From positions 62,001-126,000 of the forward strand of contig NZ_PYWA01000007.1 in NCBI RefSeq assembly GCF_003056335.1: DNA of 64,000 nucleotides. The letters are read 5' to 3'. The translations under genes and the position numbers were made by a program. Below the pieces are notes generated by a model. The model was not told where the DNA came from, did no database searches, and was given only the letters and a program-made list of their open reading frames with translations. Of this stretch, positions 2,341 through 19,503 are shown one piece after another; the stretch's first letter is position 1; the number at the start of each line of letters is the position of its first letter. Source of the DNA: Paracoccus indicus (GTDB lineage Bacteria; Pseudomonadota; Alphaproteobacteria; Rhodobacterales; Rhodobacteraceae).

Positions 2341-2556
2341 ATGATGGCGGATGCGGCTGACCAAGCCATGACCGTACGAGATGTGGCTGGCTACCTGAAC
2401 GTCGACGAAAAGACGGTTTATCGGCTCGCCAAGCGCGGCGATCTGCCGGGTTTCAAAGTGGCCGGCGCATGGCGCTTCAAGAGGTCAGACCTCGATGGCT
2501 GGATCGATCTGCAGAAAAAAGCTGCGAAAAAAGAAAGTTTGAGGGGGCCCGAGTGA
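2341..2556 (+). CDS. Excisionase-family helix-turn-helix protein
   Basis: 71 residues with the winged-helix HTH typical of the excisionase/MerR-like family (HTH_17): DVAGYLNVDEKTVYRLAKRG, then LPGFKVAGAWRF and DLDGWI. Such proteins often bind the promoter of the operon they lead. The frame opens with tandem ATGs at 2341 and 2344. Its TGA (2554-2556) overlaps the GTG start of hsdM at 2553, so the two are translationally coupled. It is the first gene of the restriction operon and probably its regulator. That role is inferred from position and fold. Confidence 0.8.
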   Translation: MMADAADQAMTVRDVAGYLNVDEKTVYRLAKRGDLPGFKVAGAWRFKRSDLDGWIDLQKKAAKKESLRGPE

Positions 2557-4685
2557 GCGATCTGAACATCAGCAATTTTATCTGGAACATCGCTGATGAT
2601 GTTCTGCGCGATGTCTATGTTCGCGGCAAATACCGGGACGTCATCCTGCCGATGACCGTCATTCGTCGGCTCGACGCCGTGCTTGAACCGACCAAGGACG
2701 CTGTCTTGGCTATGAAGGCGCAGCTGGATAAGGCAGGAGTCGCCAACCAGCACGCGGCTCTTTGCCAGGCGTCGGGCGAAGCCTTCTACAACACATCGCA
2801 GTTCCGGCTTCGCGACCTCACGTCTCGCGCGCGCCGCCAGCAGCTGAAGTCAGACTTCGAGGCCTACCTCGACGGCTTCTCCCCGAACGTTCAGGAAGTG
2901 CTCGACAAGTTCAAGTTCCGCAATCAGATCCCAACGCTTGTCGAAGCCGACGCGCTCGGGTTCCTGATCGAAAAGTTCCTCGACCCATCAGTTAATCTCA
3001 GCCCTAAGCCCGTGCTGCACCAAGACGGAAGTGTGCGCCTGCCCGGGCTCGACAACCACTCAATGGGCACAATCTTCGAGGAGCTTATCAGGCGGTTTAA
3101 CGAAGAGAACAACGAGGAGGCCGGAGAGCACTTCACGCCTCGCGACGTGGTCGAGCTCATGGCGTACCTGATCTTCATGCCGATCGCGGATGAAATTCAG
3201 TCAGGCACCTATCTCGTCTACGATGGTGCCTGCGGCACGGGAGGCATGCTGACGGTCGCGGAAGAGACGCTGATCAAGTTGGCGACCGACCACGGGAAAG
3301 AGGTGTCGGTCCACCTATACGGGCAGGAGGTCAATCCCGAGACATTCGCCATCAGCAAGGCGGACCTCATCCTAAAAGGTGAAGGGGCCGAAGCCGAGAA
3401 CATGAAGTATGGCTCGACGCTCTCCAGCGATGCATTCCCATCGAGTGAGTTCGATTTCATGCTTTCGAACCCTCCTTACGGCAAGAGCTGGAAATCCGAT
3501 CTCGACCGACTCGGCGGCAAGAAGGACATCACCGACCCCCGCTTTGTGATCGAGCACGATGGCGATCCCGAGTACAGCCTGATCACGCGCTCCAGCGATG
3601 GCCAGATGGTGTTTCTAGCCAACATGCTGAGCAAGATGAAGAAGGCCACCAAGGTCGGGAGCCGGATCGCCGAGGTCCACAATGGCTCATCTCTGTTCAC
3701 AGGCGATGCGGGATCGGGGGAGAGCAATGTGCGGCGTTGGGTCATCGAGAATGATTGGCTTGAGGCCATCATCGCGCTGCCGCTGAACATCTTCTACAAC
3801 ACCGGGATCGCGACTTACATTTGGGTGCTCAGCAATCGCAAGGCAGAGTCCCGCAAGGGCAAGGTCCAGCTGATTGATGCGACGGCGTGGTTCAAACCTC
3901 TGCGGAAAAACCTCGGCAAGAAGAATTGCATTCTCGGGCCAGATGACATCAAGCGCATCTGCGACAGCTTCCTCAACAGCGAGGAAAGCGAGCAGTCGAA
4001 GATCTTCCCCAATGAGGCGTTCGGTTACTGGAAGGTGACGGTCGAGCGGCCCTTGCGCTTGAAGGTCGAACTATCCGCGAGCGCGCAGCGTCGCTTAGCG
4101 AAGAGGTGCGCGGAGGCTGCTGAAGAGCCCCTCATTGGCGTTGTGGAAGCGGTGGCTGAGCGGCTTGGCGAAGGCCCCCATCTCGATTTCAACCGCTTCC
4201 TTGAAGAAGCCGAAGCTGTGGCGGGCAAGCGCGGCGTCCGTATGACAGCCAAGCGCCAGAAGCTCCTGATGGCTGGGTTGGGCATCAAGGATCCCGGGTC
4301 GGAACCGGTCATCAAGAAGGTGTCCAAGATCAAGCCGGGCGCCGATGCTGAATCTGATGTGCTCTACGGCAACTATCATCTGACTGTCGGTGGCAAACCA
4401 GCGATCGTCGAATTCGAGCCGGACACGGAGTTGAGGGACACCGAACAGGTGCCGTTTTTGGAAGACGGCGGTATCGAGGCGTTCTTCCGTCGCGAGGTTC
4501 TGCCTCATGCGGCCGACGCCTGGATCGATCCCTCCAAGACGGTCATCGGCTATGAAATCTCCTTCACGCGGCACTTCTACAAGCCGCAGCCGCTGCGGAC
4601 GCTCCAAGAGATCGAGGCCGACATCCGGGCTCTTGAGCAGGAAACCGAAGGCCTGCTTGAAGACGTGCTAACGGGAGGCCGCTGA
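2553..4685 (+). CDS. hsdM: Type I restriction-modification methyltransferase subunit HsdM
   Basis: 710 residues. This is the modification subunit, which transfers methyl from S-adenosylmethionine to adenine N6 within the site chosen by HsdS. An N-terminal helical HsdM_N-type region covers about 1-150. The linker motif EHFTPRDVV is near 192-200. SAM motif I (DGACGTGG) is at 224-231 and catalytic NPPY at 306-309. A long C-terminal part follows, making it longer than the classical EcoKI subunit. GTG at 2553 is chosen because it overlaps the upstream stop and the protein starts in the usual way ([17 protein letters not shown]). The upstream in-frame extension back to 2469 lies inside the HTH gene and looks artefactual. 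The next gene starts 2 bases after the stop. Confidence 0.95.
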
Positions 4686-4687
4686 GC

Positions 4688-6484
4688 ATGGCCACCCAAC
4701 GGTACTCAGTCACCCCCCATCCGATCGAAACCCTGCTTACCTGGGTGAAGTCCGGCGAGATCGCGATACCGGAAATCCAGCGCCCCTTCGTTTGGGATGC
4801 GACCAAGGTCCGCAACCTTCTGGACTCGCTCTATCAGGGCTATCCGGTCGGCTATCTGATCGCCTGGCGGAACCCGTCGGTCAGGCTGAAAGACGGTTCC
4901 ACATCCTCGGGTAAGCGCATCTTGATCGACGGGCAACAGCGCGTCACCGCGCTCATGGCCGCGTTGCTCGGCCAGGAGGTGCTGACCAAGGATTACGAGA
5001 CCGTACGCATTCGGATCGCGTTCCACCCGGTCGAGGAGCGCTTCGAGGTTTCGAACCCGGCCATCCAGAAGGACGCCTCGTGGATCCCTGATCTGGCAAC
5101 GGTCTTCGCGCCTGATGCTAGCCTGACCAAGCTCACGCGCGAATATACAGCGCGCAATCCGGACGTTGATCAGGACCAGATTTCATTAGTGCTGGAGAAG
5201 GTCCGCAAGATCATCAACAATCAGGTCGGCATCATCGAGCTGGCCGAAGACCTCGACATCGAGACGGTCACTGAGATCTTCATCCGGGTGAATTCGGCCG
5301 GGGCATCGCTCAGCCAAGCGGATTTCGCCATGTCGAAAATCGCGGCGAACGACACCTATGGCGGCAACATGCTGCGCAAGGCGATCGACTATTTCTGCCA
5401 CCTCGCCGTCGCGCCCGAATTCCTGCCTCGCATCGAGAAGGGCGACAAGGCATTCGCCGCTTCCGAGTTCCTGCCGAAGATGCGTTGGCTGAAGGACGTG
5501 AACGACGACCTCTACGACCCGTCCTACACCGACATGCTGCGCGTGGCGTTCACGTCGGAGTTCCGCAGGGGCAAGCTGCAGGATTTGGTCGCCCTGCTGT
5601 CAGGACGTAACTTCGAGACGAAGCAGTACGAGGAAGCGGTCGCCGAGGAGGCCTTCGACAAGCTGAAGGCCGGTGTCCTCAACTTCATCAATAAGACCCA
5701 CTTTGACAGGCTCACGATGATCCTGCGCTCGGCCGGGTTCGTCACCTCCGGCCTGATCCGCAGCCAGAACGCCATCAACTTTGCGTACATCCTCTACCTT
5801 CGTGGCCGCGCCGAAGGCATGCCGGCCGCCGACATCGAGCGTCTCGTTCGGCGCTGGTACGTCATGTCGCTCCTGCGCGGGCGTTATTCGGGCAGTCCCG
5901 AAACGGCCTTCGATTTCGATATCCGTCAGATCGAGTCCCGTGGCCTGGCCTCATACACCGATGCGGTGATCGACGCGGAGCTGCCCGAAAGCTTCTGGAA
6001 CACTCTGCTGCCGCAGGAGATGGACACATCGTCCGCCTCGAGCCCCTATTTCCTCGTCTATCGGGCAGCGCAGGTGAAGCTCGGCGACCTCGGGTTCCTG
6101 TCGCGGGACATCACCGTGCGTGACCTGCTGTTGAACCGGAGCGACGTGCATCACGTCTATCCGCGCAATCACCTCAAGGGCCAGGGGCTGACGCGCGGCC
6201 GCTACAACCAGATCGCCAACTTCGTCCTGGCCCAGAGCGAGATCAACATTGGCATCGGTGACCGCGACCCAAAGATTTACTTCAGCGAGTTGGCGGACCA
6301 GTGCAACGGCGGCGCCAAGAAGTATGGTGGCATCACGACGATTGAGGAGATGCGGGCCAATCTTCGGATGAGCTGCTTGCCGGAGTGCATGCTGGACGGA
6401 GAGATCCCGTCATTCGATGACTTCCTGGAACAGCGACGCAAGCTGATGGCGCAGAAGATCAAGACCTATTTTGAAGGGCTGTAA
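4688..6484 (+). CDS. DUF262 / HNH (GmrSD-like) protein within the restriction operon
   Basis: 598 residues. The N-terminal DUF262 domain shows its two signatures: PEIQRPFVW (28-36), and DGQQR (81-85), a ParB/Srx-like nucleotide-binding motif. The C-terminus has a DUF1524-type HNH nuclease signature, VHHVYPRNH, around residues 487-495, followed by a conserved Asn-rich segment. This two-domain plan is that of GmrSD-type modification-dependent restriction enzymes and relatives such as BrxU and SspE, in which the DUF262 part hydrolyses NTP and the HNH part cuts DNA. It lies 2 bases downstream of hsdM and overlaps or abuts the next gene, so it is an integral member of the operon. Whether it cuts modified phage DNA or regulates the complex is unknown. 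Confidence 0.85.
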
Positions 6485-6524
6485 GGGGCACGATGAATGC
6501 ATTGCATTGGTAGAGGAACGAGGA

Positions 6525-7556
6525 ATGGCTGAACGGGACGAACTTCTCGCGTCGATCGCAGCGACAACAGCCGACTATCGTGAGGCCGATGGGGAGGCAC
6601 CGACACCCGAGCGTATTGAGCGTTGGATTGGCCAGTTCGACGCCGCAGTTCGGCTGCCGATTCTGCGCGAGATGGACCACGTTCTGAAGCAGACATACTT
6701 TTCCCGCGCGAATACAAGAAAGTTCCTGGCAGGGCTGTTCAAGACCGAAAAACTGGTGGGAGAAGATCCGTGCGCGTTCTGGAGGAGCGTCAAGTTCCTC
6801 GATATTCAAGGCGGTGGTGCAAGTCAGAAGGAAATGTTGGCGCTCTTCAGCGTCCTCCTGGAAAAGAAGTGTGGTTTCAAGATTGAGGACTGTGGCGCTA
6901 ATCCGGACACGTTCATTTATCTCGACGATGCGATATTCTCTGGAGGGCGCGTAAGCAGCGATCTCGCCGGCTGGATCGAGACGCATGCGCCGAAGAAAGC
7001 GACGATCCACGTTATCGTCATCGCCACGCACCAAAGCTCCTACTTCAATCGCAACCGAGTGGGACAGGCCATAAAGGCTTCCGGCAAATCAATTGATGTT
7101 CACTGGTGGCGGTCGGTCGAGCTTGAGGACCGCAAGGCGCACACCACAACATCTGATGTTCTGCGACCGGTCGCCATCCCGGACGATGAGGACGTGAAGG
7201 CGTATGTCGCGGCTATGCGCTTCCCACCCCATTTGCGTACTGCTGGTCATGTCGGCGGTAGCGGCATCTTCTCCAGCGATGCCGGTCGCCAGCTTCTGGA
7301 AACGGAATTCCTGAAGGCGGGCGTGCGGATCCGGCAGATGTGCCCGCACCTGAACCAATATCAGCGACCGCTGGGGAACATGATCCTCGACACGCTGGGC
7401 TTCGGCTCGTTGATCGTCACCTTCCGTAACTGCCCGAACAATGCGCCCCTCGCGCTTTGGGCAGGTGATCCTTGGGTCCCCTTGTTCCCCCGCACTACGA
7501 ACAGCGACACCTCAATGCGCAGGTTCATGGCCATGCTGGCGCAGGAAGACTTCTAA
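6525..7556 (+). CDS. Phosphoribosyltransferase-like protein (PRTase-CE type)
   Basis: 343 residues from an ATG at 6525 preceded by GAGGAACGAGGA; the frame opens earlier at TTG 6471 inside the DUF262 gene, which is less likely. Residues 129-146 (TFIYLDDAIFSGGRVSSDL) form a PRPP-binding-loop motif: hydrophobic strand, Asp-Asp, then a small-residue Gly-Gly turn. The C-terminus has NCPNNAPLALWAG and WVPLFPRTTN, a pattern of the conflict-associated PRTase-CE family. These are thought to act on nucleotide or PRPP substrates in prokaryotic immune operons, but no activity is established to my knowledge. Its TAA overlaps the ATG of the NADAR-HsdS gene (TAATG), so translation is coupled. The assignment rests on motifs only. 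Confidence 0.7.
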   Translation: MAERDELLASIAATTADYREADGEAPTPERIERWIGQFDAAVRLPILREMDHVLKQTYFSRANTRKFLAGLFKTEKLVGEDPCAFWRSVKFLDIQGGGASQKEMLALFSVLLEKKCGFKIEDCGANPDTFIYLDDAIFSGGRVSSDLAGWIETHAPKKATIHVIVIATHQSSYFNRNRVGQAIKASGKSIDVHWWRSVELEDRKAHTTTSDVLRPVAIPDDEDVKAYVAAMRFPPHLRTAGHVGGSGIFSSDAGRQLLETEFLKAGVRIRQMCPHLNQYQRPLGNMILDTLGFGSLIVTFRNCPNNAPLALWAGDPWVPLFPRTTNSDTSMRRFMAMLAQEDF

Positions 7557-9706
7557 TGTCCCAGCCCAGCCAAGTTCGCACATATGTCCCCACCGAAAGC
7601 GCTGTCTTCCTGAAGACGAACGAGCGCTTTGGCGGGCTGTCGAACATGGCGCCTGGCTTTCCGCTTGTCGTGAATGGTGTCCGGATCCGGACGTCGGAAG
7701 CGCTCTACCAGTCCTGCCGCTTCCCCCACATGCCGGAGGTGCAGCGCATGATCATCGGAGAACGGAGCCCGATGACCGCGAAGATGCGCAGCAAACCCTA
7801 TCATCGGGCGTCCCGACCGGATTGGGATGGCGTGCGGGTCAAGATCATGCGCTGGTGCCTTCGCGTGAAGCTGGCCCAGAACTGGGCCACCTTCGGGCGG
7901 CTCCTCCTATCCACCGGCGATCGGCCCATCGTCGAGAAAAAGGTGCGCCGCAAGGATTTCTGGGGCGCCACCGAACAGCCAGACGGCACGCTGGTCGGCA
8001 TGAACGTGCTCGGGCGGCTGTTGATGGAGTTGCGCGAGCAGTTGAAGGGCGACGAGGCGGAGAGCCTGCGGTTCATCGAGCCGCTGGCGATCTCCGACTT
8101 CCTGCTGTTCGGCCAGCCCATTGAGGCGGTCCAGGCCGCGCCCAATGCCGAGATCCCCGGCTGGACCCCTCGGCGGCCATCCCAGACTGATGCCATCCAG
8201 CCGCAGCCCAGCGACCCCCAGCCCTCCTTATTTGAGCAGCCAATGATTACTGATACGCAGCCCATAGCAGCTACTGCCCAGAATGAACCGGGGAAGAGCA
8301 CGCAGCCCCTGAAGCCCTACGAAGATCGTCGCGCGGCAGGCCTGCCTTGGCTTTCCGAAATCCCAGCTCACTGGCAGGTCCGGCGCAGCAAATATGTTCT
8401 TAGGGAGGTGGACAAGCGATCCGAGACTGGTGAGGAAACCCAGCTTTCAATGAGCCAGGTTCACGGTCTGGTCGAGAGCGCGAAGATCGACACTTGGCGG
8501 CTGCGGTCCGAAAGTTACGCGGGTGGGAAGCTGTGCGAACCTGGCGACCTCGTATTGAACCGGCTCAAGGCCCACTTGGGGGTCTTCGCGCATGCCTCAA
8601 TCCCCGGCGTGATCAGCCCGGACTATACTGTGTTCCGGCCGGTTGACGACATCGAGGTCCGATACTTCGAGCATCTCTACAAGACGCCCTCCTACAAGGC
8701 CGAGCTTCGCAAGCGGACGAAGGGCATCGTTGAGGGGTTCTGGCGCCTTTATTCGGACGACTTCTACGACGTGCGTGTCGTAGTGCCCCCCAAGGATGAG
8801 CAGTCCAAGATACTTGCTTTCATTGATTCTTACGATCGAAGGGTGCGCCGCCTGATCCGCAACAAGCGGCGGCTGATCGGGCTGTTGAACGAGCAAAAGC
8901 AGGCGATCATCAACCGGGCCGTCACGCGGGGTCTGAACCCCAACGCACCGATGAAGCCCACCGGCATCGACTGGATGCCCGAGGTTCCGGCTCATTGGGA
9001 GGTAAAGCCGCTCAAGCATTGGCTCCGCGAACGCGCCAAGGCACTGAGCGACAAGACCTCGCCAGAGTACGAGTTCGATTATCTCGACATCAGCTGTGTC
9101 GGGACTGGGTTTCTGACCGCCAAGCCAGAACGCATGAAGTTCGAAGATGCCCCGTCCCGAGCGCGGCAGATCGTGCAGAAGGGCGACACGATCCTATCAA
9201 CTGTCCGGACATACCTGAAGGCGGTGTACTTCATTGACGAGGAAAGGCCGGACCTAATCGCGTCTACAGGCTTCGCGGTACTGCGCCCCGTCGAGCGTGT
9301 CGAGCCACGATTGCTGGGCTATGTCCTGCAGAGCAGCACTTTCATCGAGCGTGTCATTCGTGCGTCAATCGGAGTCGCCTATCCGGCGATTTCAGAGGCG
9401 CGCCTCGGCACCCTTCATGTCGCGTTCGCCCCTGATTTGGTCGAGCAGAAAGCGATCCTCGATCACATCGCAGCTGAGACGGCCGCCTTCGACAAGGCAA
9501 TCGAGAAGGCTCAGAACGAGATCACGCTGATCCGGGAATACCGCGAACGCCTGATTGCCGATGTCGTTACTGGCAAGCTGGACGTACGCCATATCGAGAT
9601 TGCGGCGCCTGTGGACGAACCGATCTCAGATGACGATGACGCGCTGGAGGAGGATCTGGAGGGCGACGACGCCGAGGTGATGGAGGGGGCAGATGCCGAC
9701 AACTGA
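7556..9706 (+). CDS. hsdS: NADAR domain fused to type I specificity subunit HsdS
   Basis: 716 residues. Residues about 17-165 form a NADAR (YbiA/DUF1768) domain: FGGLSNM (25-31), TSEALYQSCRF (46-56) with the conserved Glu, SPMTAK (71-76), then KLAQNW, LLLSTGD, IVE, DFWG, and G.N.LG..LMELR. A Gln/Pro-rich linker (about 190-255) leads to an ordinary HsdS with two target-recognition modules. Each is introduced by the family entry motif (GLPWLSEIPAHW near 262, GIDWMPEVPAHWEV near 485) and followed by a helical spacer. HsdS chooses the DNA sequence methylated and cut. NADAR enzymes act on ADP-ribose-type N-glycosidic bonds, including removal of ADP-ribose from guanine in some DarT-type systems. 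ATG at 7556 overlaps the preceding stop. The fusion is in one uninterrupted frame. Confidence 0.9.
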   Translation: MSQPSQVRTYVPTESAVFLKTNERFGGLSNMAPGFPLVVNGVRIRTSEALYQSCRFPHMPEVQRMIIGERSPMTAKMRSKPYHRASRPDWDGVRVKIMRWCLRVKLAQNWATFGRLLLSTGDRPIVEKKVRRKDFWGATEQPDGTLVGMNVLGRLLMELREQLKGDEAESLRFIEPLAISDFLLFGQPIEAVQAAPNAEIPGWTPRRPSQTDAIQPQPSDPQPSLFEQPMITDTQPIAATAQNEPGKSTQPLKPYEDRRAAGLPWLSEIPAHWQVRRSKYVLREVDKRSETGEETQLSMSQVHGLVESAKIDTWRLRSESYAGGKLCEPGDLVLNRLKAHLGVFAHASIPGVISPDYTVFRPVDDIEVRYFEHLYKTPSYKAELRKRTKGIVEGFWRLYSDDFYDVRVVVPPKDEQSKILAFIDSYDRRVRRLIRNKRRLIGLLNEQKQAIINRAVTRGLNPNAPMKPTGIDWMPEVPAHWEVKPLKHWLRERAKALSDKTSPEYEFDYLDISCVGTGFLTAKPERMKFEDAPSRARQIVQKGDTILSTVRTYLKAVYFIDEERPDLIASTGFAVLRPVERVEPRLLGYVLQSSTFIERVIRASIGVAYPAISEARLGTLHVAFAPDLVEQKAILDHIAAETAAFDKAIEKAQNEITLIREYRERLIADVVTGKLDVRHIEIAAPVDEPISDDDDALEEDLEGDDAEVMEGADADN

Positions 9707-12668
9707 CACGAGCGAAAGAGGTCTCGAAACCCTTATCGTCCGCTCGCTGATCGACGAGGCCGGTTACGTCGCTGGCGCATCGACGGATTTCGATCGGGAC
9801 CACGCCCTAGACCTGGCCAAGCTGTTCGCCTTCCTGAACGCCACGCAGCCCGATGCTGTCGAAGCCCTCGGCATCGGTGAAGACGGGCCGAAGCGGCTGC
9901 AGTTCCTTCACCGGCTGCAAGGCGAGATCGCCAAGCGCGGTGTCATCGACGTGCTGCGCAACGGCGTGAAGCACGGCCCCGGATCGGTTGAGCTGTTTTT
10001 CGGCACGCCGACGCCCGGCAACGCCAAGGCCGAGGAGCTGTTCGCCGCCAATATCTTCAGCGTCACCCGCCAGCTGCACTATTCCAAGGATGCGACCAAG
10101 CTGTCGCTCGACGCAGCGCTGTTCATCAACGGCCTGCCCGTCGCCACCTTCGAGTTGAAGAACAGCCTGACCAAGCAGACGGTCGAGGGCGCGATCGAGC
10201 AGTACAAGCGCGACCGTGACCCGAAGGAGCTGCTGTTCCAGTTCGGCCGCTGCGTCGTCCATTTCGCCGTGGACGACCACGAAGTGCGGATGTGCAGTCA
10301 CCTGAAGGGCAAGGCGTCCTGGTTCCTGCCCTTCAACAAGGGCTGGAATGACGGCGCGGGCAACCCGCCGAACCCGCATGGACTGAAAACCGACTATCTG
10401 TGGAAGCAGGTTCTTACGAAGCGCAACCTCACCGACATATTGGAAAACTATGCGCAGGTGGTCGAGGAAACGGACGAGCGCGGAAAGAAGAAGCCGCCGA
10501 AGCAGATTTTCCCGCGCTTTCACCAGCTCGACGTGGTGCGCAAGCTGCTGGCTGACGCCGAGGCTTCCGGCGCCGGGCGGCGGTACCTGATCCAGCACTC
10601 GGCAGGTTCGGGCAAGAGCAACTCGATTGCCTGGCTCGGCCACCAGCTGATCGGGCTGGAGACCGGCGGCAAGCCGACCTTCGACACCGTCATCGTTGTC
10701 ACCGACAGGCGTAATCTCGACAAACAGATCCGCGACACGATCAAGCAGTTCGCGCAGGTGTCCTCCATCGTCGGCGCGGTCACGGAAGGCTCGCAGCAGC
10801 TGCGGACGTTCCTGCAGCAGGGCAAGAAGATCATCATCACCACGGTGCAGAAGTTCCCGTTCATCCTCGACGAGATCGGGGACGGGCATCGCGGGCGAAC
10901 CTTCGCCATCATCATTGACGAGGCGCATTCCAGCCAGGGCGGCCGGACCTCGGCAAAGATGAACATCGCGCTTGCCGCGAACGGCGCCGAGGAGGAAGAG
11001 GAAACCGTCGAGGACACGATCAACCGGCTGATGGAAGCGCGGAAGGTCCTGCCGAACGCGAGCTATTTCGCCTTCACCGCCACGCCCAAGAACAAGACGC
11101 TGGAGATTTTCGGCACGGCGGTCCCCGAGGGTGGGAAAGTCAGGCACGTCCCCTTCCACAATTATTCGATGAAGCAGGCCATCGAAGAGGGCTTCATCCT
11201 CGACGTGCTCAAGCACTACACGCCAGTCGAGAGCTACTACCGGCTCATGAAGACGGTGGAGGACGACCCGCAGTTCGACGCCAAGCGGGCGCAAAAAAAG
11301 CTCAGGCGCTATGTCGAATCCCATGACCATGCCATCCGCAAGAAAGCTGAGATCATGGTCGACCACTTCCACGACCAGGTGATGGCTCACCGCAAGATCG
11401 GCGGCGCAGCGCGCTCGATGGTGGTGACCAGCGGAATTCACCGCGCAATCCAGTATTTTCACGCCTTCGGGGAGTATCTGAAGGAGCGCAAGAGCCCCTA
11501 TCAGGCCATCGTCGCCTTCTCGGGCGAGCACGAATATGGCGGTCAGAAGGTGACCGAGGCGTCGCTCAACGGCTTTCCCAGCAACAAGATCGAGGAGTTG
11601 ATCCAGAAGGACCCGTACCGGTTTCTCATCGTCGCCGACAAGTTCCAGACCGGCTATGACGAGCCGCTTCTGCACACGATGTACGTGGACAAAACGCTGT
11701 CCGGCATCAAGGCCGTGCAGACGTTGTCGCGCTTGAACCGGGCACATCCGCAGAAGCACGATACCTTCGTGCTGGATTTCATGAACGATGTGGACAGCAT
11801 CAAGGCGTCGTTCGAGGACTATTACCGCACGACGATCCTGAGCGAGGAGACCGACCCGAACAAGCTGCACGACCTGAAAGCGCGGCTCGACGGCTACCAG
11901 GTCTATTCCTGGGAGCAGGTGGAGGACCTCGTGGCGCTTTATCTCAATGGCGCCGACCGCGACAAGCTCGACCCCATCCTCGACGCGTGCGTCGCGGTCT
12001 ACAAAGCCGATCTCGATGAGGATGGGCAGGTCGACTTCAAGGGCAAGGCAAAGGCTTTCACGCGCACCTACGGATTCCTCGCGGCCATCCTGCCCTACAC
12101 GAATGCGAAGTGGGAGAAGCTCTCGATTTTCCTGAACTTCCTGACGCCGAAACTGCCCGCTCCGGAGGAGCAGGACCTGTCGAAGGGCATTCTGGAGGCC
12201 ATCGACATGGACAGCTACCGAGTCGAGGCGCAGGCGACGATGGCGATTGCGCTTCCCGATGCCGACGCGGAAATTGGACCTGTGCCGTTGGGCGGAGGCG
12301 GCCGTAAGCCTGAGCCGGAACTGGATCTGCTCAGCAACATCCTCAAGACGTTCAACGAGATGTTCGGCAACATCGACTGGAAGGACGCCGACAAGATCGG
12401 GAAGGTGATAGCTGAGGAGTTGCCCACGAAGGTCGCGGCCGACAAGGCCTATCAAAACGCGATGCAGAATTCGGACAAGCAGAACGCCCGCATCGAGCAC
12501 GACAAGGCACTGGAGCGCGCGGTCATCGAGCTTCTGTCGGACCATACCGAGCTATTCAAACAGTTCAGCGACAATCCATCGTTCAAGAAATGGCTTTCGG
12601 AGACGATTTTCGCGGCGACCTATGCCGAGAAGGCGGCACCGACCGGTTCGGCCGCTACTCGCAGCTGA
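9693..12668 (+). CDS. hsdR: Type I restriction endonuclease/translocase HsdR
   Basis: 991 residues. This is the motor and nuclease subunit, which translocates DNA with ATP and cuts away from the unmodified target. A PD-(D/E)XK nuclease core is at about 140-156 (D140, then FELKN with E154 and K156). A superfamily 2 helicase follows: Walker A HSAGSGKS near 302-310, DEAH near 407, TATP near 460, and a motif VI-like TLSRLNRAHP near 680. The C-terminus (about 850-960) is helical and should bind HsdM. The ATG overlaps the hsdS stop by 14 bases. No internal stop or missing motif is seen, so the enzyme should be active. Confidence 0.95.
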   Translation: MPTTDTSERGLETLIVRSLIDEAGYVAGASTDFDRDHALDLAKLFAFLNATQPDAVEALGIGEDGPKRLQFLHRLQGEIAKRGVIDVLRNGVKHGPGSVELFFGTPTPGNAKAEELFAANIFSVTRQLHYSKDATKLSLDAALFINGLPVATFELKNSLTKQTVEGAIEQYKRDRDPKELLFQFGRCVVHFAVDDHEVRMCSHLKGKASWFLPFNKGWNDGAGNPPNPHGLKTDYLWKQVLTKRNLTDILENYAQVVEETDERGKKKPPKQIFPRFHQLDVVRKLLADAEASGAGRRYLIQHSAGSGKSNSIAWLGHQLIGLETGGKPTFDTVIVVTDRRNLDKQIRDTIKQFAQVSSIVGAVTEGSQQLRTFLQQGKKIIITTVQKFPFILDEIGDGHRGRTFAIIIDEAHSSQGGRTSAKMNIALAANGAEEEEETVEDTINRLMEARKVLPNASYFAFTATPKNKTLEIFGTAVPEGGKVRHVPFHNYSMKQAIEEGFILDVLKHYTPVESYYRLMKTVEDDPQFDAKRAQKKLRRYVESHDHAIRKKAEIMVDHFHDQVMAHRKIGGAARSMVVTSGIHRAIQYFHAFGEYLKERKSPYQAIVAFSGEHEYGGQKVTEASLNGFPSNKIEELIQKDPYRFLIVADKFQTGYDEPLLHTMYVDKTLSGIKAVQTLSRLNRAHPQKHDTFVLDFMNDVDSIKASFEDYYRTTILSEETDPNKLHDLKARLDGYQVYSWEQVEDLVALYLNGADRDKLDPILDACVAVYKADLDEDGQVDFKGKAKAFTRTYGFLAAILPYTNAKWEKLSIFLNFLTPKLPAPEEQDLSKGILEAIDMDSYRVEAQATMAIALPDADAEIGPVPLGGGGRKPEPELDLLSNILKTFNEMFGNIDWKDADKIGKVIAEELPTKVAADKAYQNAMQNSDKQNARIEHDKALERAVIELLSDHTELFKQFSDNPSFKKWLSETIFAATYAEKAAPTGSAATRS

Positions 12669-12855
12669 ACCAGCGCATGGCAGTTTGGATCAGATGGTCA
12701 TGATCCCCGCTAGTGGCCTCTTGGTAGAACGCGTCGATCTCCTTCTGCGAGAGGCCCGCATCTTTTGCAGCCTGCCGGCACAAGCCGAGGATCATGAAGG
12801 CATTGCTGTCGTGTCCAGTCAGCTGGACTGTTATGTTTGAGTACTTCGGGGGCAT
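12655..12855 (-). CDS. Small conserved hypothetical protein facing hsdR
   Basis: 66 residues starting MPPKYSNITVQLTGHDSNAF, with KDAGLSQKEIDAFYQEATSGDHDHLIQTAMRWF. I recognise this as a widespread short protein of unknown function found near restriction and mobile genes; it has no catalytic motif I can name. It converges on hsdR, and its last 14 bases overlap the hsdR 3' end in antisense. The next leftward gene upstream on the same strand is phage lysis, so it may belong to the restriction island rather than the prophage. Confidence 0.75.
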   Translation of the reverse strand: MPPKYSNITVQLTGHDSNAFMILGLCRQAAKDAGLSQKEIDAFYQEATSGDHDHLIQTAMRWFSCE

Positions 12856-12960
12856 TGACCGGCTCCTCCAGCGCAGTAGGTACGACGCCTAGAACGCTCG
12901 TTTATCCATTATTATCAACAAGATATGGCGGCTTGACTCGCGCTTCTCCCACTGCCGTGT

Positions 12961-13224
12961 TTAAGGGCTTGGGCTGCGACAACTTCGCGCCTGATCCCGC
13001 AGGACGCTGTAGTCGGCGAGCGTCTCCGCGATCGCCGAACCCTCGGGCAGCAGGGCCAGCTCCTCTGCAGCGCGCGCCTGGAACTCCCTGCTGTACTCGA
13101 CGACCGGCGGACACGCCCCTGGCCCGCTACGGTCAGAACCGACCGTCGCGCAGCCGCTCAGCCAGGTCGTCGCGAGAACGAGGACGGCGCGCCGCAGCCT
13201 CCAGCATTCGGCGTTGTACGTCAT
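12961..13224 (-). CDS. Outer-membrane spanin lipoprotein (Rz1-like)
   Basis: 87 residues with a lipoprotein signal: a basic start (CWRLRRAVLVL), a hydrophobic run and the lipobox LSGC. The mature part has CPPVVEYSREFQARAAEELALLPEGS, seen in o-spanins of alphaproteobacterial phages. It would sit in the inner leaflet of the outer membrane and pair with the i-spanin to fuse the two membranes at lysis. Its 5' end overlaps the 3' part of the i-spanin gene by 92 bases in another frame, the classic Rz/Rz1 arrangement. Confidence 0.75.
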   Translation of the reverse strand: MTYNAECWRLRRAVLVLATTWLSGCATVGSDRSGPGACPPVVEYSREFQARAAEELALLPEGSAIAETLADYSVLRDQARSCRSPSP

Positions 13225-13390
13225 TGGTCTTCTCCGAGGTTTCGAGGCGTTCGGCGAGGCGTCCCGCTCGCTCCCCGGAGCGCCGAAGCGAAAGCAGGAA
13301 CAGGAGCACTGCCAGCGCGATGGCTCCGTAGCGCAGCGCCGCCCGCATCCATGGGCTCGTGGCGATCCCGGTGAGGAGCCCGCCGATCAC
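13133..13390 (-). CDS. Inner-membrane spanin (Rz-like)
   Basis: 85 residues: one N-terminal membrane segment (ALRYGAIALAVLLFLLSL, about 19-36), then a charged helical stretch with coiled-coil character (RSGERAGRLAERLETSEKTN). This is the layout of i-spanins. The start is GTG at 13390, which overlaps the TGA of the endolysin gene (GTGA), so the two are coupled. The frame stays open further upstream, but that is endolysin sequence. Assigned from topology and from the overlapping lipoprotein gene, not from sequence similarity. Confidence 0.65.
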   Translation of the reverse strand: MIGGLLTGIATSPWMRAALRYGAIALAVLLFLLSLRRSGERAGRLAERLETSEKTNDVQRRMLEAAARRPRSRDDLAERLRDGRF

Positions 13391-14061
13391 CGACGCCCCC
13401 GCTTCCAATCGTCGAGGCGGGCATAGATGGTGACCCCGATGCCGCCGAGCGCCACGGCGATGAACACCCAACGCAACGTGTCGAGATACGGCACCAGTGG
13501 CAGGATGGCGGTCTGGGTCTCGGTCAGGACGCTCTGCGCCACCTCCACGCCGGCAGCGCCCAGCGTGGCGACACCGGCCGCCCCGCCACCCTTCATGGTG
13601 CGGCTCTCCGCCAGCACTTCGCGCGCGGGCGGCGTTTCTTCGGCGAAGGCGGTCGGCCGGACCGGGAACCGCTCGCCCCACTGACGCGCGGGGCCGAGGT
13701 CGACATGGATGAACCCCGATCGCGGGTAGAACCCGAAGCCGAGGAACCCGACCTCCCGCGCCGCAGCCTCGAACGCCACCGGGTCGTGGTTTGCCATGGC
13801 GATGTCCAAGGCGGCGCCGTCGAGGTGCTTCGAGCGGGTGGCGCCGCCCACGGCGCGGTTGTGCTCGGGGCTGCGATAGGCGGAGCGGACGATCAGCGGC
13901 TTGCCCAGCCGGTCGCGCAGCGCCTGCAGCTTGTCGAGCGCCGCTTCGTTGATCAGCAGCTTGCCGGTGCCCCGGCAGGCGATTTCGGCCGGGCTGAAAT
14001 TCGGCCAGCGCCAGGTGCCCTCGGGCACGTCGCGCCAGTGGCTGTGGAAGGTCTTCGTCAT
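13387..14061 (-). CDS. Peptidase M15-type endolysin with C-terminal membrane anchor
   Basis: 224 residues. Residues about 10-130 are a peptidase M15A (D-Ala-D-Ala carboxypeptidase-like) domain: SAYRSPEHNRAVGG, the zinc-binding SKHLDGAALDIA (His and Asp ligands), and GFIHVDLG with the third ligand. It should cleave peptidoglycan cross-links during lysis. An Ala-rich region and one membrane segment (LRWVFIAVALGGIGVTIYA) near the C-terminus suggest it is tethered in the inner membrane. First gene of the endolysin/spanin cassette, preceded by a hairpin at 14083-14101. Confidence 0.85.
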   Translation of the reverse strand: MTKTFHSHWRDVPEGTWRWPNFSPAEIACRGTGKLLINEAALDKLQALRDRLGKPLIVRSAYRSPEHNRAVGGATRSKHLDGAALDIAMANHDPVAFEAAAREVGFLGFGFYPRSGFIHVDLGPARQWGERFPVRPTAFAEETPPAREVLAESRTMKGGGAAGVATLGAAGVEVAQSVLTETQTAILPLVPYLDTLRWVFIAVALGGIGVTIYARLDDWKRGRR

Positions 14062-14082
14062 GGGGGCCTCCGAAAACGAGAA

Positions 14083-14101
14083 ACCCGCCTCGAGGGCGGG
14101 T
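14083..14101 (-). terminator. Hairpin between holin-like and endolysin genes
   Basis: ACCCGCC and GGCGGGT form a perfect 7-bp stem with a 5-base loop. On the minus strand the stem is followed by TTTCTCGTTTTC. It may be a leaky terminator that sets expression of the lysis cassette. Confidence 0.5.
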
Positions 14102-14134
14102 CATTGCGGGCTGATGAATGGGGATTGGGCGCGG

Positions 14135-14422
14135 CTACGGGCCGCTGCCGAAGATCTTGAGCTTGATGGCGATGCCTGCGAGCAGCGCCAGCATGACGCC
14201 GGTGGTGATCATGCGGACGGCGGTCTGCATCGCGGTGCGGCGCACCAGCCGAATGCAATCCACCAGGGAGCGCAGATCGCGGATGTCGAGCGCGGCCTCG
14301 TCGCCATCGAGGCCGACATCGGCGAGCGCGCGCTTCGCGCCTTCCTCGGCCGCGCGGGTAAGGATCGCCTCGAACTCGGCGTCGGGCATGCGCACGAAGC
14401 CTTCGGATCGGGGTGGTGTCAT
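14135..14422 (-). CDS. DUF6127-like membrane protein, holin candidate
   Basis: 95 residues from an ATG at 14422 preceded by AGGACC; the open frame upstream of it does not look coding. The N-terminus is charged and helical (MPDAEFEAILTRAAEEGAKRALADVG). A single membrane helix lies near the C-terminus (ITTGVMLALLAGIAIKLKIF). I associate it with the DUF6127 family of Rhodobacterales prophages. Its position, size and one membrane segment beside endolysin and spanins make a holin or holin-like role plausible, but that is inference. Confidence 0.65.
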   Translation of the reverse strand: MTPPRSEGFVRMPDAEFEAILTRAAEEGAKRALADVGLDGDEAALDIRDLRSLVDCIRLVRRTAMQTAVRMITTGVMLALLAGIAIKLKIFGSGP

Positions 14423-15528: not shown

Positions 15529-18500
15529 TCAGAGTATCAGCGTGACGGTCTTGGGCGCGCCCCGCCCCACGAGGGCGGAGAGCTGGTAGATGCGGACGGT
15601 GAGGTTGTCGCCGGGCCCGAGCGGCCCGCTCCAATCGGCGGTCTGCTGGGCGGCGGTGTAGACGGCGCTGGCGGTGGCGGTGCTCAGCAGCCGCATTACC
15701 GTGGCACCGTCCAGGATTTCGACCTCGTAGGCTTCCAGTTCCTCCGCCATAGGCACTTCGACAGCGCCCCAGCTGTCGGCGGCGAGCGCGCGGGACCGGC
15801 GTTTCCAGCGGATCGTCAGATCGCCGGGCGTACGCGGCGTGCGCCACGGCTGCTCGACATGGGCGACGGAGAACGGCCGCAGCCCCACGCCTACCGGCGT
15901 GAATGCCTGCGCGACATAGGTCTCGTCGCTGACCGATCGGCTCGCCGGGCCGACGCGCCAGTTCCACGGGATGCCGAGATCAGCCTCGGCGATCGGCAGC
16001 GATGCGAGGCTGTCGTCGAGCACGACGACCCGCGCGCCTGCCGGAGCCGGGTTGCCCATGGCGCCTTCTGTGCCGCGCTGACCGCGCAGGAGCCGGGTGA
16101 GCCTATACCGGCCGGGCGCGAGCAGCTCGGCCGCACCCGCCTGGACGATCTCCCAGACGCCGGGCGCGCTCTCGATGGCCAGCGCGTTCGCCCCGCCGAA
16201 CAGGGTCAGCTCGGTGACGCTTTCCAGCGTGCCGGTCAGCAGATCGATTACCAGCGCATTGCCGAGATCGAAGCGCGACGTGGGGCCGGCATAGAAGTCC
16301 GAGACCAGCGCCCCGATCCGGGCGCGGCTGCCGAACGTCGTCAGCAGCTCGAAGCCATCGGTCGACGGGCTGCGGAACACCGCCATCTCTCCGGGCCACG
16401 GCACGGCATGCGCCGCCGCAAACGGCCGGTGCGCGGGCTGGTCTTCGGTCAGCTGCGGCAGGTCCATGAGCACCGCATCCGGCGCGCCGAACACCACGGC
16501 GCGCGTCAGCGACGCCGCGCGGGGATCGCCGGGCGGCAGATCGTAGGTCGCCCTGTCCTGGCGCACCGCCTCGATGCCGCGCGCCTCGGCATCGGCGATG
16601 GAGATGAGCCGCAGGTCGACCAGCCGCCCGTCATGCACGAGGCGGATCGCGTCAGCCGGATCGAGCGCGAGCCGCGAGGGCGGCACACGGAATGCCGCCG
16701 TCTCGCGCCCCACCCACGCCTCCATCAGCGCGCGGCGGCAGCGGCGCTCGGCCTCCTCGGGCGGCACCGCCATCGGGAAGGATTCTGAGGCGATCCGGGT
16801 CGTGTCTACCGTGATGCGCCGCGCCTCGACGAGGGCCGCGTCGTAGTCCTCGTCGGCGCGCGCGATCTGCCATTTCAGCGCCTGCGGCAGTTCGGTCTCC
16901 TGGCCGCGCGTCAGTTCCAGCACGTCGCCCTCGCGGGCGGCCACCAGATCGTCGGGTACGAGAGTGGTGACGGAGGCCCGGCCGCGCATTACGAAGCGGA
17001 TCACCCCCTCGGTCTCGACGGCGTCGAAGCCGAAGTGGCGCGACAGCGTCGTGATCGAGGCGCGCGGGCTCTCCAGCGCCGTGATGGCGTAGCCCTCGAC
17101 CGCGCCCCAGAGCCCGGTGACGTCGATCCGGGACTCGGGCAGCCCGGCGCGCAGACAAAGGTGGCGGACGAGCGCGGCCAGCGACACCGCCCCAAGCCGC
17201 CCGGTCAGCCAGTGGCCGAGCCGCCAGTTGCCACCGTCCGTCCAGACATCGGTGAGCGCCGGAAAGAACGGATAGGGCCGCGCGTCCCAGGTCCAGGCGG
17301 CGCATTCGGGGACATGCACCATCCGACCGCCGTAGACCGAGGACACCGGGTTGTTCGCGGCCTCGCCCCACCAGAGGTACGTCGCCTCGAGATACGCCCG
17401 CTGGATGGCGTCGTCGCGCCAGCCCCGCGAAAAATGCGGCGTGAAGCTCTCGGACGACTTCGGGTCGAAGAAGACGTTCGGCTGGTTGGTGCCACGGTCG
17501 ATAGCGGGGCAACCGAGTTCCGTGAACCAGATCGGCTTGGATTGCGGCGCCCATTCGGTTGGGGTGCCGCTCTCCTCGCCGCCGGGGCGGTTGTAGTGTG
17601 CGTTCGACCACCAGGCGCGAAGATCCTTGTAGCGGAAGACCCACGGCTTTCCCGCGCCGCCATCCGTGATCGGCGTCCGCACCTGTGCGGTTCGATCCGC
17701 CGGACTGGCGTAGAACCAGTCGAAGCCCTCGCCGCCCGCGATGTTCCCCTGCAGGTAGGCCCGGTCGTAGATCGCGGGCCAGCCCTCGGCTGCATCGATA
17801 TGCTCGAAGCCGTCGCGCCAATCCGACAGTGGCATATAGTTGTCGATCCCGACGAAATCGATCTCCGGATCGGCCCATAGTGGGTCGAGATGGAAGAACA
17901 CATCGCCCGAGCCGTCGCCCGGCTGATGCCCGAAATACTCCGACCAGTCGGCGGCATAGCCGAGGCTCACACCGGACCCGAGGATCGACCGCACATCCGC
18001 AAGCAGGTCCCGATACGCCTGCACCGCCGGATAGGTGCTGGCGCTCGAGCGGATCGTCGTGAGCCCCGGCATCTCGGTGCCGATCAGGAAGGCGTCGACC
18101 CCGCCCGCCGCCACGCAGAGATGGGCGTAGTGCAGCACCATGCGCCGCAGACCCCAGTCGCCGGATGGTCCGGTCCAAGAAACCGTCTGACCCGAAACGC
18201 TGAAGCTCGCGGGCGTGGCCGCGCCGAACAGCGCCGCGACCTGGCTTGCGGCCGTGGCGGTCTTGTCGACCGATCCGGCGTAGCCAGCGGCAGGCGAACA
18301 GGTGATCCGCCCTCGCCAAGGAAACGCAGGCTGACCCGTCTCCGCGGCGCTGTCGGAATACGGGTTCGGCAGCGTGTTGCCGGGCGGCACGTCCATCAGG
18401 ATGAAGGGATAGAAGGTGACGCGCAGTCCGCGCGCCTTCATCTCCTGGATGGCCTGAACCACCGCGAAGTCGGACGGCGTGCCGCCATAGACCGGCCGGT

Positions 18501-19494
18501 CCTGGTCGTCGCGGCTGACGAGGAAGGCATTGGCGCGGCTCACGCCGTTCACCGACCAGCTGGCGGGCGTGGTCGACTTCGCGGAGACCTCGACGCCGGG
18601 CCGCACCTTGCAGGAGCCTGCGCGCAGGTCGTCGCCGAACCACGCCACCACGAGGCTGACGCTTGTCACAGCCGGGGCCATCGCCTGCAGCCGGTCGAGC
18701 GCTTCGACCATGTCGGTGGAGTCGGCCAGCGCGTTCAGGTTCTCGGGCACCGTCGCGCCGCCATCGGTCTTGCGGATCGCCTGCGTCGCATAGGTGAACT
18801 CGCCCGAGGCCGGGATCATGGTGACGGCGCGGGTGAGCCCCTCGGCGGTGTCGGGATCGGCGAGCGGACGGAACACCTCGAACGACAGCTGCGGCAGGCG
18901 GTTGCCGTAGGTCGAGAGCGCCAGCTCTTCGAAGACCACATAGGCCGTGCCGCGATAGGCCGGCGTGCTGGCCGCGCCCATCTTCGCGGCGATGAACGGA
19001 TCGGCCGTCTGCGCCTCGTCGCCCGGATACCAGCGCCAGGTCACGCCGGAGAGGTCCATCGGCTTGCCGTCGGCCCAGATGCGGCCGATGCCGGTGATCG
19101 GACCCTCGCAGAGCGCGACGGCGAAGCTGGCGTAGTAGAGATATTCGGTCGTCTTGACCTTGCCGCCTCCACCTCCCTTGCCGCCGCCTTGGGTGGTGGT
19201 CATCGTCTCCTCGCGGAAGTCGGTCGCCCAGATGATGTTGCCGCCCATCCGCATGCGCCCGTAGAGCCGCGGGATCACCGCGCCCTCGGTAGCCGAGGTG
19301 ATGCGCAGCGTGTCGAGCCGCGCGCCCTCGATGCGCTGCGTGGGCGCCAGCGACGAGATGATCCAGCTGTCCACGACTGAGCCGATGGTGGAGCCGATGA
19401 AGCCGCCGATGGTCGCGGCGCTGACGCCGAGGATGGCTCCGCCAATGCTGCCGCCAATGGCGGCGCCTGCGGCGCCGAGAACGAGGGTGGCCAT
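15529..19494 (-). CDS. Baseplate multidomain protein (GTA TIM-barrel / tail tip)
   Basis: 1321 residues, the largest gene in the window. A Gly/Ala-rich hydrophobic start (about 1-45) leads into a tail-hub region. Around 350-720 is the GTA TIM-barrel-like glycoside hydrolase fold (RVTFYPFILMDVPPGN, IDFVGIDNYMPLSDW, KPIWFTELGCPAIDRGTNQPNVF), then a phage-tail-3 type hub domain. It is the counterpart of the Rhodobacter gene transfer agent megatron protein (gp15) and of lambda J. It should form the central tail tip, bind the receptor and perhaps digest surface polysaccharide. Full length, no defects. Confidence 0.9.
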   Translation of the reverse strand: MATLVLGAAGAAIGGSIGGAILGVSAATIGGFIGSTIGSVVDSWIISSLAPTQRIEGARLDTLRITSATEGAVIPRLYGRMRMGGNIIWATDFREETMTTTQGGGKGGGGGKVKTTEYLYYASFAVALCEGPITGIGRIWADGKPMDLSGVTWRWYPGDEAQTADPFIAAKMGAASTPAYRGTAYVVFEELALSTYGNRLPQLSFEVFRPLADPDTAEGLTRAVTMIPASGEFTYATQAIRKTDGGATVPENLNALADSTDMVEALDRLQAMAPAVTSVSLVVAWFGDDLRAGSCKVRPGVEVSAKSTTPASWSVNGVSRANAFLVSRDDQDRPVYGGTPSDFAVVQAIQEMKARGLRVTFYPFILMDVPPGNTLPNPYSDSAAETGQPAFPWRGRITCSPAAGYAGSVDKTATAASQVAALFGAATPASFSVSGQTVSWTGPSGDWGLRRMVLHYAHLCVAAGGVDAFLIGTEMPGLTTIRSSASTYPAVQAYRDLLADVRSILGSGVSLGYAADWSEYFGHQPGDGSGDVFFHLDPLWADPEIDFVGIDNYMPLSDWRDGFEHIDAAEGWPAIYDRAYLQGNIAGGEGFDWFYASPADRTAQVRTPITDGGAGKPWVFRYKDLRAWWSNAHYNRPGGEESGTPTEWAPQSKPIWFTELGCPAIDRGTNQPNVFFDPKSSESFTPHFSRGWRDDAIQRAYLEATYLWWGEAANNPVSSVYGGRMVHVPECAAWTWDARPYPFFPALTDVWTDGGNWRLGHWLTGRLGAVSLAALVRHLCLRAGLPESRIDVTGLWGAVEGYAITALESPRASITTLSRHFGFDAVETEGVIRFVMRGRASVTTLVPDDLVAAREGDVLELTRGQETELPQALKWQIARADEDYDAALVEARRITVDTTRIASESFPMAVPPEEAERRCRRALMEAWVGRETAAFRVPPSRLALDPADAIRLVHDGRLVDLRLISIADAEARGIEAVRQDRATYDLPPGDPRAASLTRAVVFGAPDAVLMDLPQLTEDQPAHRPFAAAHAVPWPGEMAVFRSPSTDGFELLTTFGSRARIGALVSDFYAGPTSRFDLGNALVIDLLTGTLESVTELTLFGGANALAIESAPGVWEIVQAGAAELLAPGRYRLTRLLRGQRGTEGAMGNPAPAGARVVVLDDSLASLPIAEADLGIPWNWRVGPASRSVSDETYVAQAFTPVGVGLRPFSVAHVEQPWRTPRTPGDLTIRWKRRSRALAADSWGAVEVPMAEELEAYEVEILDGATVMRLLSTATASAVYTAAQQTADWSGPLGPGDNLTVRIYQLSALVGRGAPKTVTLIL

Positions 19495-19503
19495 GGCGGG
19501 ATC

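Follow-up and report, generated by a model that had tools for sequence, protein, structure and literature searches.

In the RRDM island of enteropathogenic Escherichia coli, DarTG2 is embedded in a type I restriction-modification system together with the helix-turn-helix (HTH) repressor RptR (PMC12255303). Hma, made up of the HmaA helicase, the HmaB methyltransferase and the HmaC ATPase, has been treated as a DUF499-centred system related to BREX (PMC12839542). NADARs act as erasers in the DarT1-NADAR and YarT-YbiA pairs (PMC11543638, PMC11125620), and type III-A retrons combine a phosphoribosyltransferase (PRTase) with a winged-helix protein (PMC12548924). Here we describe a six-gene operon at positions 2341-12668 of a 64,000-nucleotide stretch of Paracoccus indicus DNA (the window), in which a PRTase gene and a NADAR domain fused to HsdS lie within a type I gene set. 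All six genes are on the + strand in the order HTH, HsdM, DUF262, PRTase, NADAR::HsdS and HsdR. DarTG2 in its type I system is the closest published case that we found, in a literature search that covered open-access titles, starts of abstracts and passages, with supplements, preprints and closed journals outside it. No description of a NADAR::HsdS fusion and no mention of "PRTase-CE" was found in that literature.

The PRTase and NADAR parts of the operon correspond to the two halves of the DS32 pair. The PRTase scored 417.6 bits against the NCBIfam model DS32_1 (NF053875, cut-off 250), and the NADAR, encoded directly downstream, scored 275.3 bits against DS32_2 (NF053876, cut-off 240). DS32 is presumed to be anti-phage from the naming by its curators, and some RefSeq records of E. 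coli call the prophage PRTase-NADAR pair "anti-phage protein". It is probably a system of DefensePredictor (PMC13092281), judging from the DS naming, the legend of Fig. 4, which has a PRTase, and a single mention of a NADAR domain; the string DS-32 is absent from the main text of that paper. The open-access literature searched yielded no biochemical mechanism for the PRTases of DS32 or type III-A retrons. NADAR and HsdS are encoded by one open reading frame (ORF; 7556-9706), whose ATG has one base in common with the PRTase stop codon. A preliminary description of this DNA, made from the sequence alone, had recognized a five-component, one-strand operon led by an HTH gene, and all ORFs were found at the predicted coordinates with their families matched. 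Its statement that all genes overlap or abut does not hold, since the best start of the PRTase gene is the ATG at 6525, 40 bases past the DUF262 stop codon; an alternative TTG at 6471 would overlap DUF262.

The gene neighbourhood was compared in 19 distinct type I loci (the window, L001-L010, L012, L013, L088, L094, L095, L098, L099 and L103), obtained from a PRTase scan of species genomes (13 loci), further family searches and 33 viral or proviral contigs. Since all of these except L088, which was found with HsdR, were recovered using PRTase as the query, the presence of PRTase is not informative and what adjoins it is. HsdM precedes PRTase in 19/19 loci, albeit partial in L005, L088 and L099. 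In all 18 loci whose sequence reaches HsdS, the PRTase stands directly before NADAR and HsdS in a single open frame. A frame artefact as the cause of the fusion was ruled out by the frame being open in every one of them. L005 was counted for HsdM, DUF262 and PRTase and left out of the fusion count, as it has a stop codon in PRTase and its contig ends inside NADAR. The preliminary description had named a lack of conservation of the PRTase and DUF262 genes beside NADAR::HsdS in other genomes as evidence against its proposal, and these loci do not refute it. DUF262 lies between hsdM and PRTase in 12/19 loci (it is lacking in L003, L010, L088, L094, L095, L099 and L103) and is thus an optional part of the operon. 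The hosts include several alphaproteobacterial families and Nitrococcus, a gammaproteobacterium; the host of L005 is unsure because this 3.9 kb contig comes from a metagenome bin, named Opitutales. Because the gene order recurs in other genomes, the operon is not a chance arrangement.

The same pairing was seen over a wider collection. NADAR directly follows PRTase in 58/58 loci, duplicates included (the window, L001-L013, L018-L020, L061, L062, L065, L088, L094-L129 and L148). This set was not de-replicated: L097 is the contig of L004, L108 is close to L099, and several E. coli alleles resemble one another. L051 and L087, which equal L007 and L003, were not counted again, and L017 (genome G300; 25.9 bits) was left out as below the cut-off. 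Searches with the other proteins, less biased and small, agree with the PRTase-query loci on the pairing. With HsdM, in 385 genomes of the class, both loci of at least 91% identity (the window's own and G450) carry the pair. Nine more at about 58-80% were fetched (L052-L060), and none of the seven that could be judged carries it; L055 and L058 end right after HsdM, leaving their pair status unverified. With HsdR, in 292 genomes of the order, there were five matches of at least 90%, three of which carry the pair (the window's own, G975 and G908). The locus in G1006 is a remnant that has been rearranged. In G916, NADAR is reduced to its last 26 residues, which precede HsdS and lie beside transposase-like ORFs that are IS3-like by eye, and neither PRTase nor HsdM occurs within the 19.5 kb fetched. 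The NADAR family search gave 3/376 genomes above the cut-off, with PRTase before NADAR in 3/3; among 15 genomes with weaker NADAR matches, no PRTase was found on the four of their contigs that were fetched, three of which are shorter than 4.4 kb. Searches for the PRTase family found 3/398 genomes of the phylum above the cut-off, 2/48 (both within those three) and 3/369. The system is both rare and patchy.

The distribution over HsdM lineages is patchy as well. A single clade of HsdM from pair carriers was rejected with a P value in the approximately unbiased test (p-AU) of 5.8e-34 (17 carriers and 7 non-carriers, with L055 and L058 left out); an earlier HsdM set, in which the "none" labels of these two loci are unverified, also rejected it (p-AU 1.3e-4). 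The pair has moved among HsdM lineages or was lost from them, and trees of this kind cannot separate gain from loss. The NADARs fused to HsdS as one clade were not rejected, with p-AU values of 0.125 (23 rows) and 0.082 (30 rows, with the long rows L019, L020 and L065 left out), and the free trees split them. PRTase-NADAR is a portable module on type I lineages. The suggestion in the preliminary description of a distinct type I subclass has to be abandoned, since the carriers' HsdMs do not form a single clade, the pair is absent from related operons (L052, L053, L054, L056, L057, L059, L060 and L064) and it also lives outside type I operons.

Outside type I operons, the pair occurs as a two-gene PRTase-NADAR unit in L096 and L148, on Methylobacterium and Vibrio plasmids, and in a Klebsiella record of 5.4 Mb that belongs to the plasmid collection. 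A lambdoid prophage of E. coli carries it between replication gene P and ninE. Matches to the pair were found in 63/5426 E. coli genomes, 43 of them over at least 80% of its length. In the E. coli records H21 and H22, from two strains, the annotation splits the PRTase gene in two, with an ISKpn26-type transposase between the pieces. Five of the 33 viral-contig loci belong to type I (L097, L098, L099, L103 and L108); in the other 28, the DNA available matched neither type I nor Hma. The pair was also found inside Hma. L061 reads HmaA-PRTase-NADAR-HmaB-HmaC by PADLOC, and L062 has the same layout as judged from its ORFs, without a PADLOC scan. In L011 (10846-14772), from a Gemmataceae bin, the Hma methyltransferase HmaB carries NADAR as an N-terminal fusion. 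The Hma loci with PRTase-NADAR gave no matches to type I genes.

The PRTase gene varies in blocks between operons that are otherwise nearly identical. Between L004 and L009, the synonymous divergence (dS) was 0.028 for HsdM, 0.235 for DUF262, 0.130 for NADAR, 0.044 for HsdR and 0.956 for PRTase. Their PRTase nucleotide identity was 88-100% over codons 1-60, 90-95% from codon 281 and 60-82% between. L012 and L013 showed 55-75% identity in codons 61-220 versus 88-100% around them. For both pairs, the edges of the blocks ruled out that the PRTase gene had simply diverged evenly along its length. Over residues 111-200 (numbered, as throughout, from base 6522, which is one codon upstream of the ATG), the PRTase alleles form classes that do not follow the relationships of the HsdMs. 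In this region, L004 and L009 are 51% alike despite 99% HsdM identity. L002 and L006, whose HsdMs are 85% and 98% identical to that of the window, are 91% alike, and the PRTase of the window is only 51-53% alike to either. The main class of PRTase cores as a clade was rejected by the HsdM data (p-AU 1.9e-88); the reverse incongruence tests on the core were not significant (p-AU 0.060 and 0.351). The variable block falls inside the part aligned to PRTases (about residues 51-310) and contains the invariant Y133, D135, D136, F139 and G141, and the N-terminal helices and the C-terminal RNCPNN part are more constant than the core. No block was found in pairs such as window/L001, L006/L008 or L004/L098 (save for codons 61-80), and in pairs of the E. 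coli type the PRTase changes faster but without sharp block edges. We read these patterns as suggesting that the PRTase core, about residues 61-265, was exchanged by recombination between some near-identical operons. Such block-wise variation of a PRTase between near-identical operons, as with the recognition regions of HsdS, is new here.

To gain insights into the possible functions of the two proteins, we examined the fold and the active-site residues of each. An initial model of the PRTase was of low quality (pLDDT 67), and its rows in the VIA structure comparison were PRTases. A second model, from an alignment of 31 rows, had a pLDDT of 88.2 and a pTM of 0.86, and Foldseek ranked PRTases first for it with a weak best E of 2.7e-3. 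In VIA, 46 of the 50 matches listed were titled PRTase, PyrR, UMP synthase or phosphoribosyl pyrophosphate (PRPP) synthetase, the other four being 1v9s, 1ufr, 7rh8 and 5vog. The matches spanned 109-139 residues at 3.0-4.8 Å with Z values of 7.0-8.4, middling by the notes of the tool, and the nearest structures were uracil PRTase, PyrR and purine PRTases. On this modelling, the PRTase-CE protein likely has the core fold of a type I PRTase. Y133, D135, D136, F139 and G141 are invariant in 31/31 aligned rows, giving YxDDxxFxG. A PRPP-binding loop would have a DD and a following glycine, and the motif here departs from the usual pattern. The protein also matches three PADLOC PRTase_III-A models over a short C-terminal stretch (best 2.8e-9), and it had no match when searched against phage records. 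For the NADAR, sequence profiles matched the solved structures of YbiA (2b3w, 1.2e-24) and 8bau (1.1e-9). Its E47 and E126 (numbered from base 7559, the second codon) are invariant in 19/19 aligned relatives and, through the alignments with 8bau and 2b3w, coincide with the catalytic glutamates E43 and E125 of the NADAR of P. nicotianae (PMC11543638). These results agree with the PRTase-like and NADAR identities given in the preliminary description, and they support membership of the NADAR in the YbiA-type hydrolase family; we do not file it as a guanine-ADP-ribose hydrolase.

We propose, tentatively, that this type I operon hosts two embedded modules, an optional, type IV-like DUF262 protein and the DS32 pair with its NADAR fused to HsdS, and that the pair is a writer and an eraser guarded by the restriction complex. 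The PRTase would be the writer or toxin, linking a (phospho)ribosyl group by an N-glycosidic bond to a nucleobase, a nucleic acid or a cofactor, and the NADAR would be the eraser that hydrolyses this bond. With the eraser fused to HsdS, the assembled restriction complex would guard the pair; if a phage blocked or saturated the type I complex, the balance would shift and the PRTase would halt the infection. Variation in phage inhibitors or targets might be what drives the exchange of the PRTase core among operons. The case for a writer and an eraser leans mainly on the analogy with DarT1-NADAR, YarT-YbiA and embedded DarTG, and the fusion of NADAR to HsdS is the reason for proposing a coupling to the restriction complex. 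The constant PRTase-NADAR pairing, the fusion in 18/18 type I loci, the second fusion to HmaB, the retained NADAR glutamates, the PRTase-like fold and the retained PRPP-loop-like motif all count in favour of this proposal. So do the related operons: L057, in a genome of the window's class, has a DarT-DarG pair between hsdS and hsdR (8255-9959; Pfam DarT 212 bits, Macro 93 bits), and on the Meiothermus plasmid of L064 genes annotated as DUF4433, which we take to be the DarT family, and as a macro domain lie at the same place (12683-14376). Here another writer/eraser toxin-antitoxin pair occupies the same kind of operon. In the same vein, the "built-in safety or abortive module" of the preliminary description is plausible by analogy with DarTG in a type I operon (PMC12255303). 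A more specific form of our proposal, in which the type I complex is both sensor and antitoxin of the PRTase effector, the state of the complex sets the erasure of the mark, and the catalytic domain of PRTase is swapped like HsdS recognition domains to outrun phage inhibitors or change target, seems unlikely.

Several results weigh against the proposal. Foldseek with the PRTase models never reached E < 1e-3 and returned two unrelated proteins at the top for the first model, and a sequence-profile search found no solved PRTase better than E 0.49. All 19 DS32-type NADARs aligned have an arginine (R54, window 7718-7720) in place of K95, the catalytic lysine of the E. coli C7 NADAR (PMC11543638), so that hydrolysis of guanine-ADP-ribose cannot be assumed. 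Finally, E. coli prophages and plasmids carry the pair with no restriction system, and HsdS is therefore not required for PRTase-NADAR as such. This bears on the view that DS32 is an independent defence for which the type I operon is a sheltered expression site, the HsdS fusion being a translational convenience without regulatory coupling. Pairs with no type I or Hma neighbour are common (28/33 of the viral-contig loci, in the DNA available), and the gaps between hsdM and hsdS and between hsdS and hsdR, the latter termed a potential recombination hotspot (PMC12255303), host unrelated genes such as DarTG, Fic, YhcG, RhuM and a PLD-like protein. However, a mere convenience is hard to reconcile with a fusion kept in all 18 type I loci, including L010, L094 and L095 with HsdM only about 57-66% identical to that of the window, or with a second NADAR fusion to an Hma DNA methyltransferase. 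We regard a passenger role as a possibility on the unlikely side, if a little less so than the sensor-and-antitoxin form above.

The fusions to DNA-recognition or methylation subunits of two unrelated systems would also fit an attack on bases, in which HsdS brings NADAR to unmethylated phage sites and, with a PRTase-made intermediate, NADAR acts as a DNA N-glycosidase that makes abasic sites and so adds base excision to type I cutting. We know of no NADAR that removes an unmodified base, the known ones taking an added ribose off the base, and free-standing pairs have no DNA-recognition subunit beside them; although restriction glycosylases exist (PMC10273834) and NADARs hydrolyse ADP-ribose off guanosine in DNA, this is improbable. 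A futile cycle, in which a nucleotide formed from PRPP by the PRTase is hydrolysed again by NADAR, so that PRPP is drained and phage DNA synthesis stops, would suit a PRTase model whose closest structures are uracil PRTase, PyrR and purine PRTases, as well as the cleavage of N-glycosidic bonds in riboflavin intermediates by E. coli YbiA. It leaves the fusion to HsdS or HmaB unexplained, and we consider it more improbable still. GmrSD-type proteins act on modified DNA, and NADARs reverse the ADP-ribosylation of guanosine in DNA; NADAR could then strip glycosyl or ADP-ribosyl groups added by the phage, re-exposing sites to HsdS and the type I nuclease, with DUF262 handling other modified DNA. 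We give this little credence, since it has no role for the PRTase that accompanies NADAR in every locus above the cut-off.

Our proposal of a guarded writer/eraser pair joins two lines of work, on defence genes embedded in other defence systems and on (ADP-)ribose chemistry in phage defence. NADAR::HsdS and NADAR::HmaB physically link an eraser-type enzyme with the subunit that recognizes or methylates DNA in two unrelated systems, and these fusions make the functional coupling of embedded modules to their host system a directly testable question. The exchanged PRTase core may point to an arms race at the effector itself.

The features of the operon are collected in Table 1. The five large proteins each keep their expected motifs. 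HsdM, with DGACGTGG and NPPY, matched PADLOC MTase_I at 842 bits; HsdS matched Specificity_I at 332.7 bits across residues 281-708 of the NADAR::HsdS protein (P0006); and FELKN, GSGKS, DEAH and TATP are present in HsdR. HsdM, an HsdS with two recognition regions and HsdR are thus encoded together as a type I restriction-modification gene set, from whose motifs sequence-specific N6-adenine methylation and translocation-linked cutting are predicted. The HTH stop and the hsdM start overlap as GTGA, two bases separate hsdM from the DUF262 gene, and hsdS and hsdR overlap by 14 bases. The DUF262 protein has the DGQQR motif expected of GmrSD_N, and its top PADLOC match was HEC-05. The label "GmrSD-like" given earlier stands on this N-terminal domain; the HNH end claimed with it is a motif only (HH..P..HL, as HHVYPRNHL at 6149) and had no Pfam match to GmrSD_C. 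The HTH protein, 84-88% identical to its counterparts in sister operons where these were found, is a probable regulator of the operon, and no repeats were found where sought ahead of its gene. The MADS defence set comprises MAD1, MAD2 and further genes. It was not found among the six operon proteins: the HTH protein scored 77 bits against NCBIfam antiphage_MADS1 (MAD1), just below the cut-off of 80, HsdM scored 35.5 against 720 for MAD2, and PADLOC mad2 and mad5 matched the operon proteins more weakly than the ordinary type I models.

Table 1. Features of the operon in the window.
Feature	Position	Strand	Match
Small HTH protein, 71 aa, excisionase/MAD1-like	2341..2556	+	Pfam HTH_17, 59.7 bits
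HsdM, type I N6-adenine methyltransferase, 710 aa, GTG start	2553..4685	+	Pfam N6_Mtase and HsdM_N
DUF262/GmrSD_N protein, 598 aa, HNH-like C-terminal motif	4688..6484	+	Pfam GmrSD_N, 104.5 bits
PRTase-CE protein, 343 aa, first half of DS32 pair	6525..7556	+	Pfam PRTase-CE, 199 bits
Variable block within PRTase gene, about codons 61-265 (from base 6522)	6702..7316	+	
PRPP-loop-like motif YLDDAIFSG in PRTase	6918..6944	+	
NADAR domain, second half of DS32 pair, fused to HsdS	7556..8176	+	Pfam NADAR, 72.5 bits
Linker plus HsdS (two target-recognition regions), encoded in the NADAR ORF	8177..9706	+	
HsdR, type I restriction/translocase subunit, 991 aa	9693..12668	+	Pfam HSDR_N, SWI2_SNF2, T1R_D3-like

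Around the operon, an McrC-like ORF (762-1499, - strand; Pfam McrBC 126 bits) and a piece of a transposase (249-614, + strand; below the family cut-off) lie just upstream, and tail genes of the gene-transfer-agent type (15529-20831, - strand; GTA_TIM, Rcc01698_C and a baseplate hub) lie downstream. An antisense ORF of 912 aa opposite hsdR (9807-12545, - strand) is probably a shadow frame of high GC content. The related type I operons vary in what they carry. L053 is a bare hsdMSR, L052 has a Fic protein and L063 a YhcG nuclease before hsdS. Among those with the pair, L099 carries RhuM and L094 a PLD-like protein just under the family cut-off. Beside PRTase-NADAR::HsdS in L095 (4796-5404, - strand) is an orphan protein that by eye resembles the C-terminal half of DarG; it has no macro domain, DarT or Pfam match. 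An HNH domain of about 196 aa is fused to HsdR in L012 (13162, scanned) and, by ORF length, in L013 (13129) and L093 (1-1243); by sequence likeness, another lies beside hsdS in L089 (9986-10732).

Compared with known systems, the idea of guarding has its model in EcoprrI-PrrC, where a type I enzyme keeps a toxin latent until phage inhibition of the enzyme sets the toxin free; PrrC is an anticodon nuclease and unrelated to the proteins here. With Hma, the operon shares PRTase-NADAR (L061 and L062), a NADAR fusion (L011) and the match of its DUF262 protein to HEC-05, where HEC presumably stands for Hma-embedded candidate; it differs in that no type I genes were matched in Hma loci with the pair. 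Both proteins score above the curated DS32 cut-offs and are encoded by adjacent genes in the same order as in DS32, whereas here the pair lies inside a type I operon with NADAR fused to HsdS and the PRTase has an exchanged core. As in DarT1-NADAR and YarT-YbiA (PMC11543638, PMC11125620), a transferase adjoins a NADAR eraser with the YbiA-type catalytic glutamate (E126 here), but the transferase has a PRTase-like rather than an ADP-ribosyltransferase fold, and arginine takes the position of K95 of the C7 NADAR. A PRTase as the presumed effector, together with the PRTase_III-A matches, recalls the type III-A retrons (PMC12548924); the partner here is a NADAR, and no search for a reverse transcriptase or retron RNA was made in the window. 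The RRDM island (PMC12255303) resembles the operon most closely, in that a small DNA-binding protein comes first, likened by position and not by sequence in the case of RptR, and a writer/eraser pair lies inside hsdM-hsdS-hsdR. DarTG2 is encoded there by two separate genes between hsdS and hsdR, whereas PRTase-NADAR occupies the gap between hsdM and hsdS, with its NADAR half fused to HsdS.

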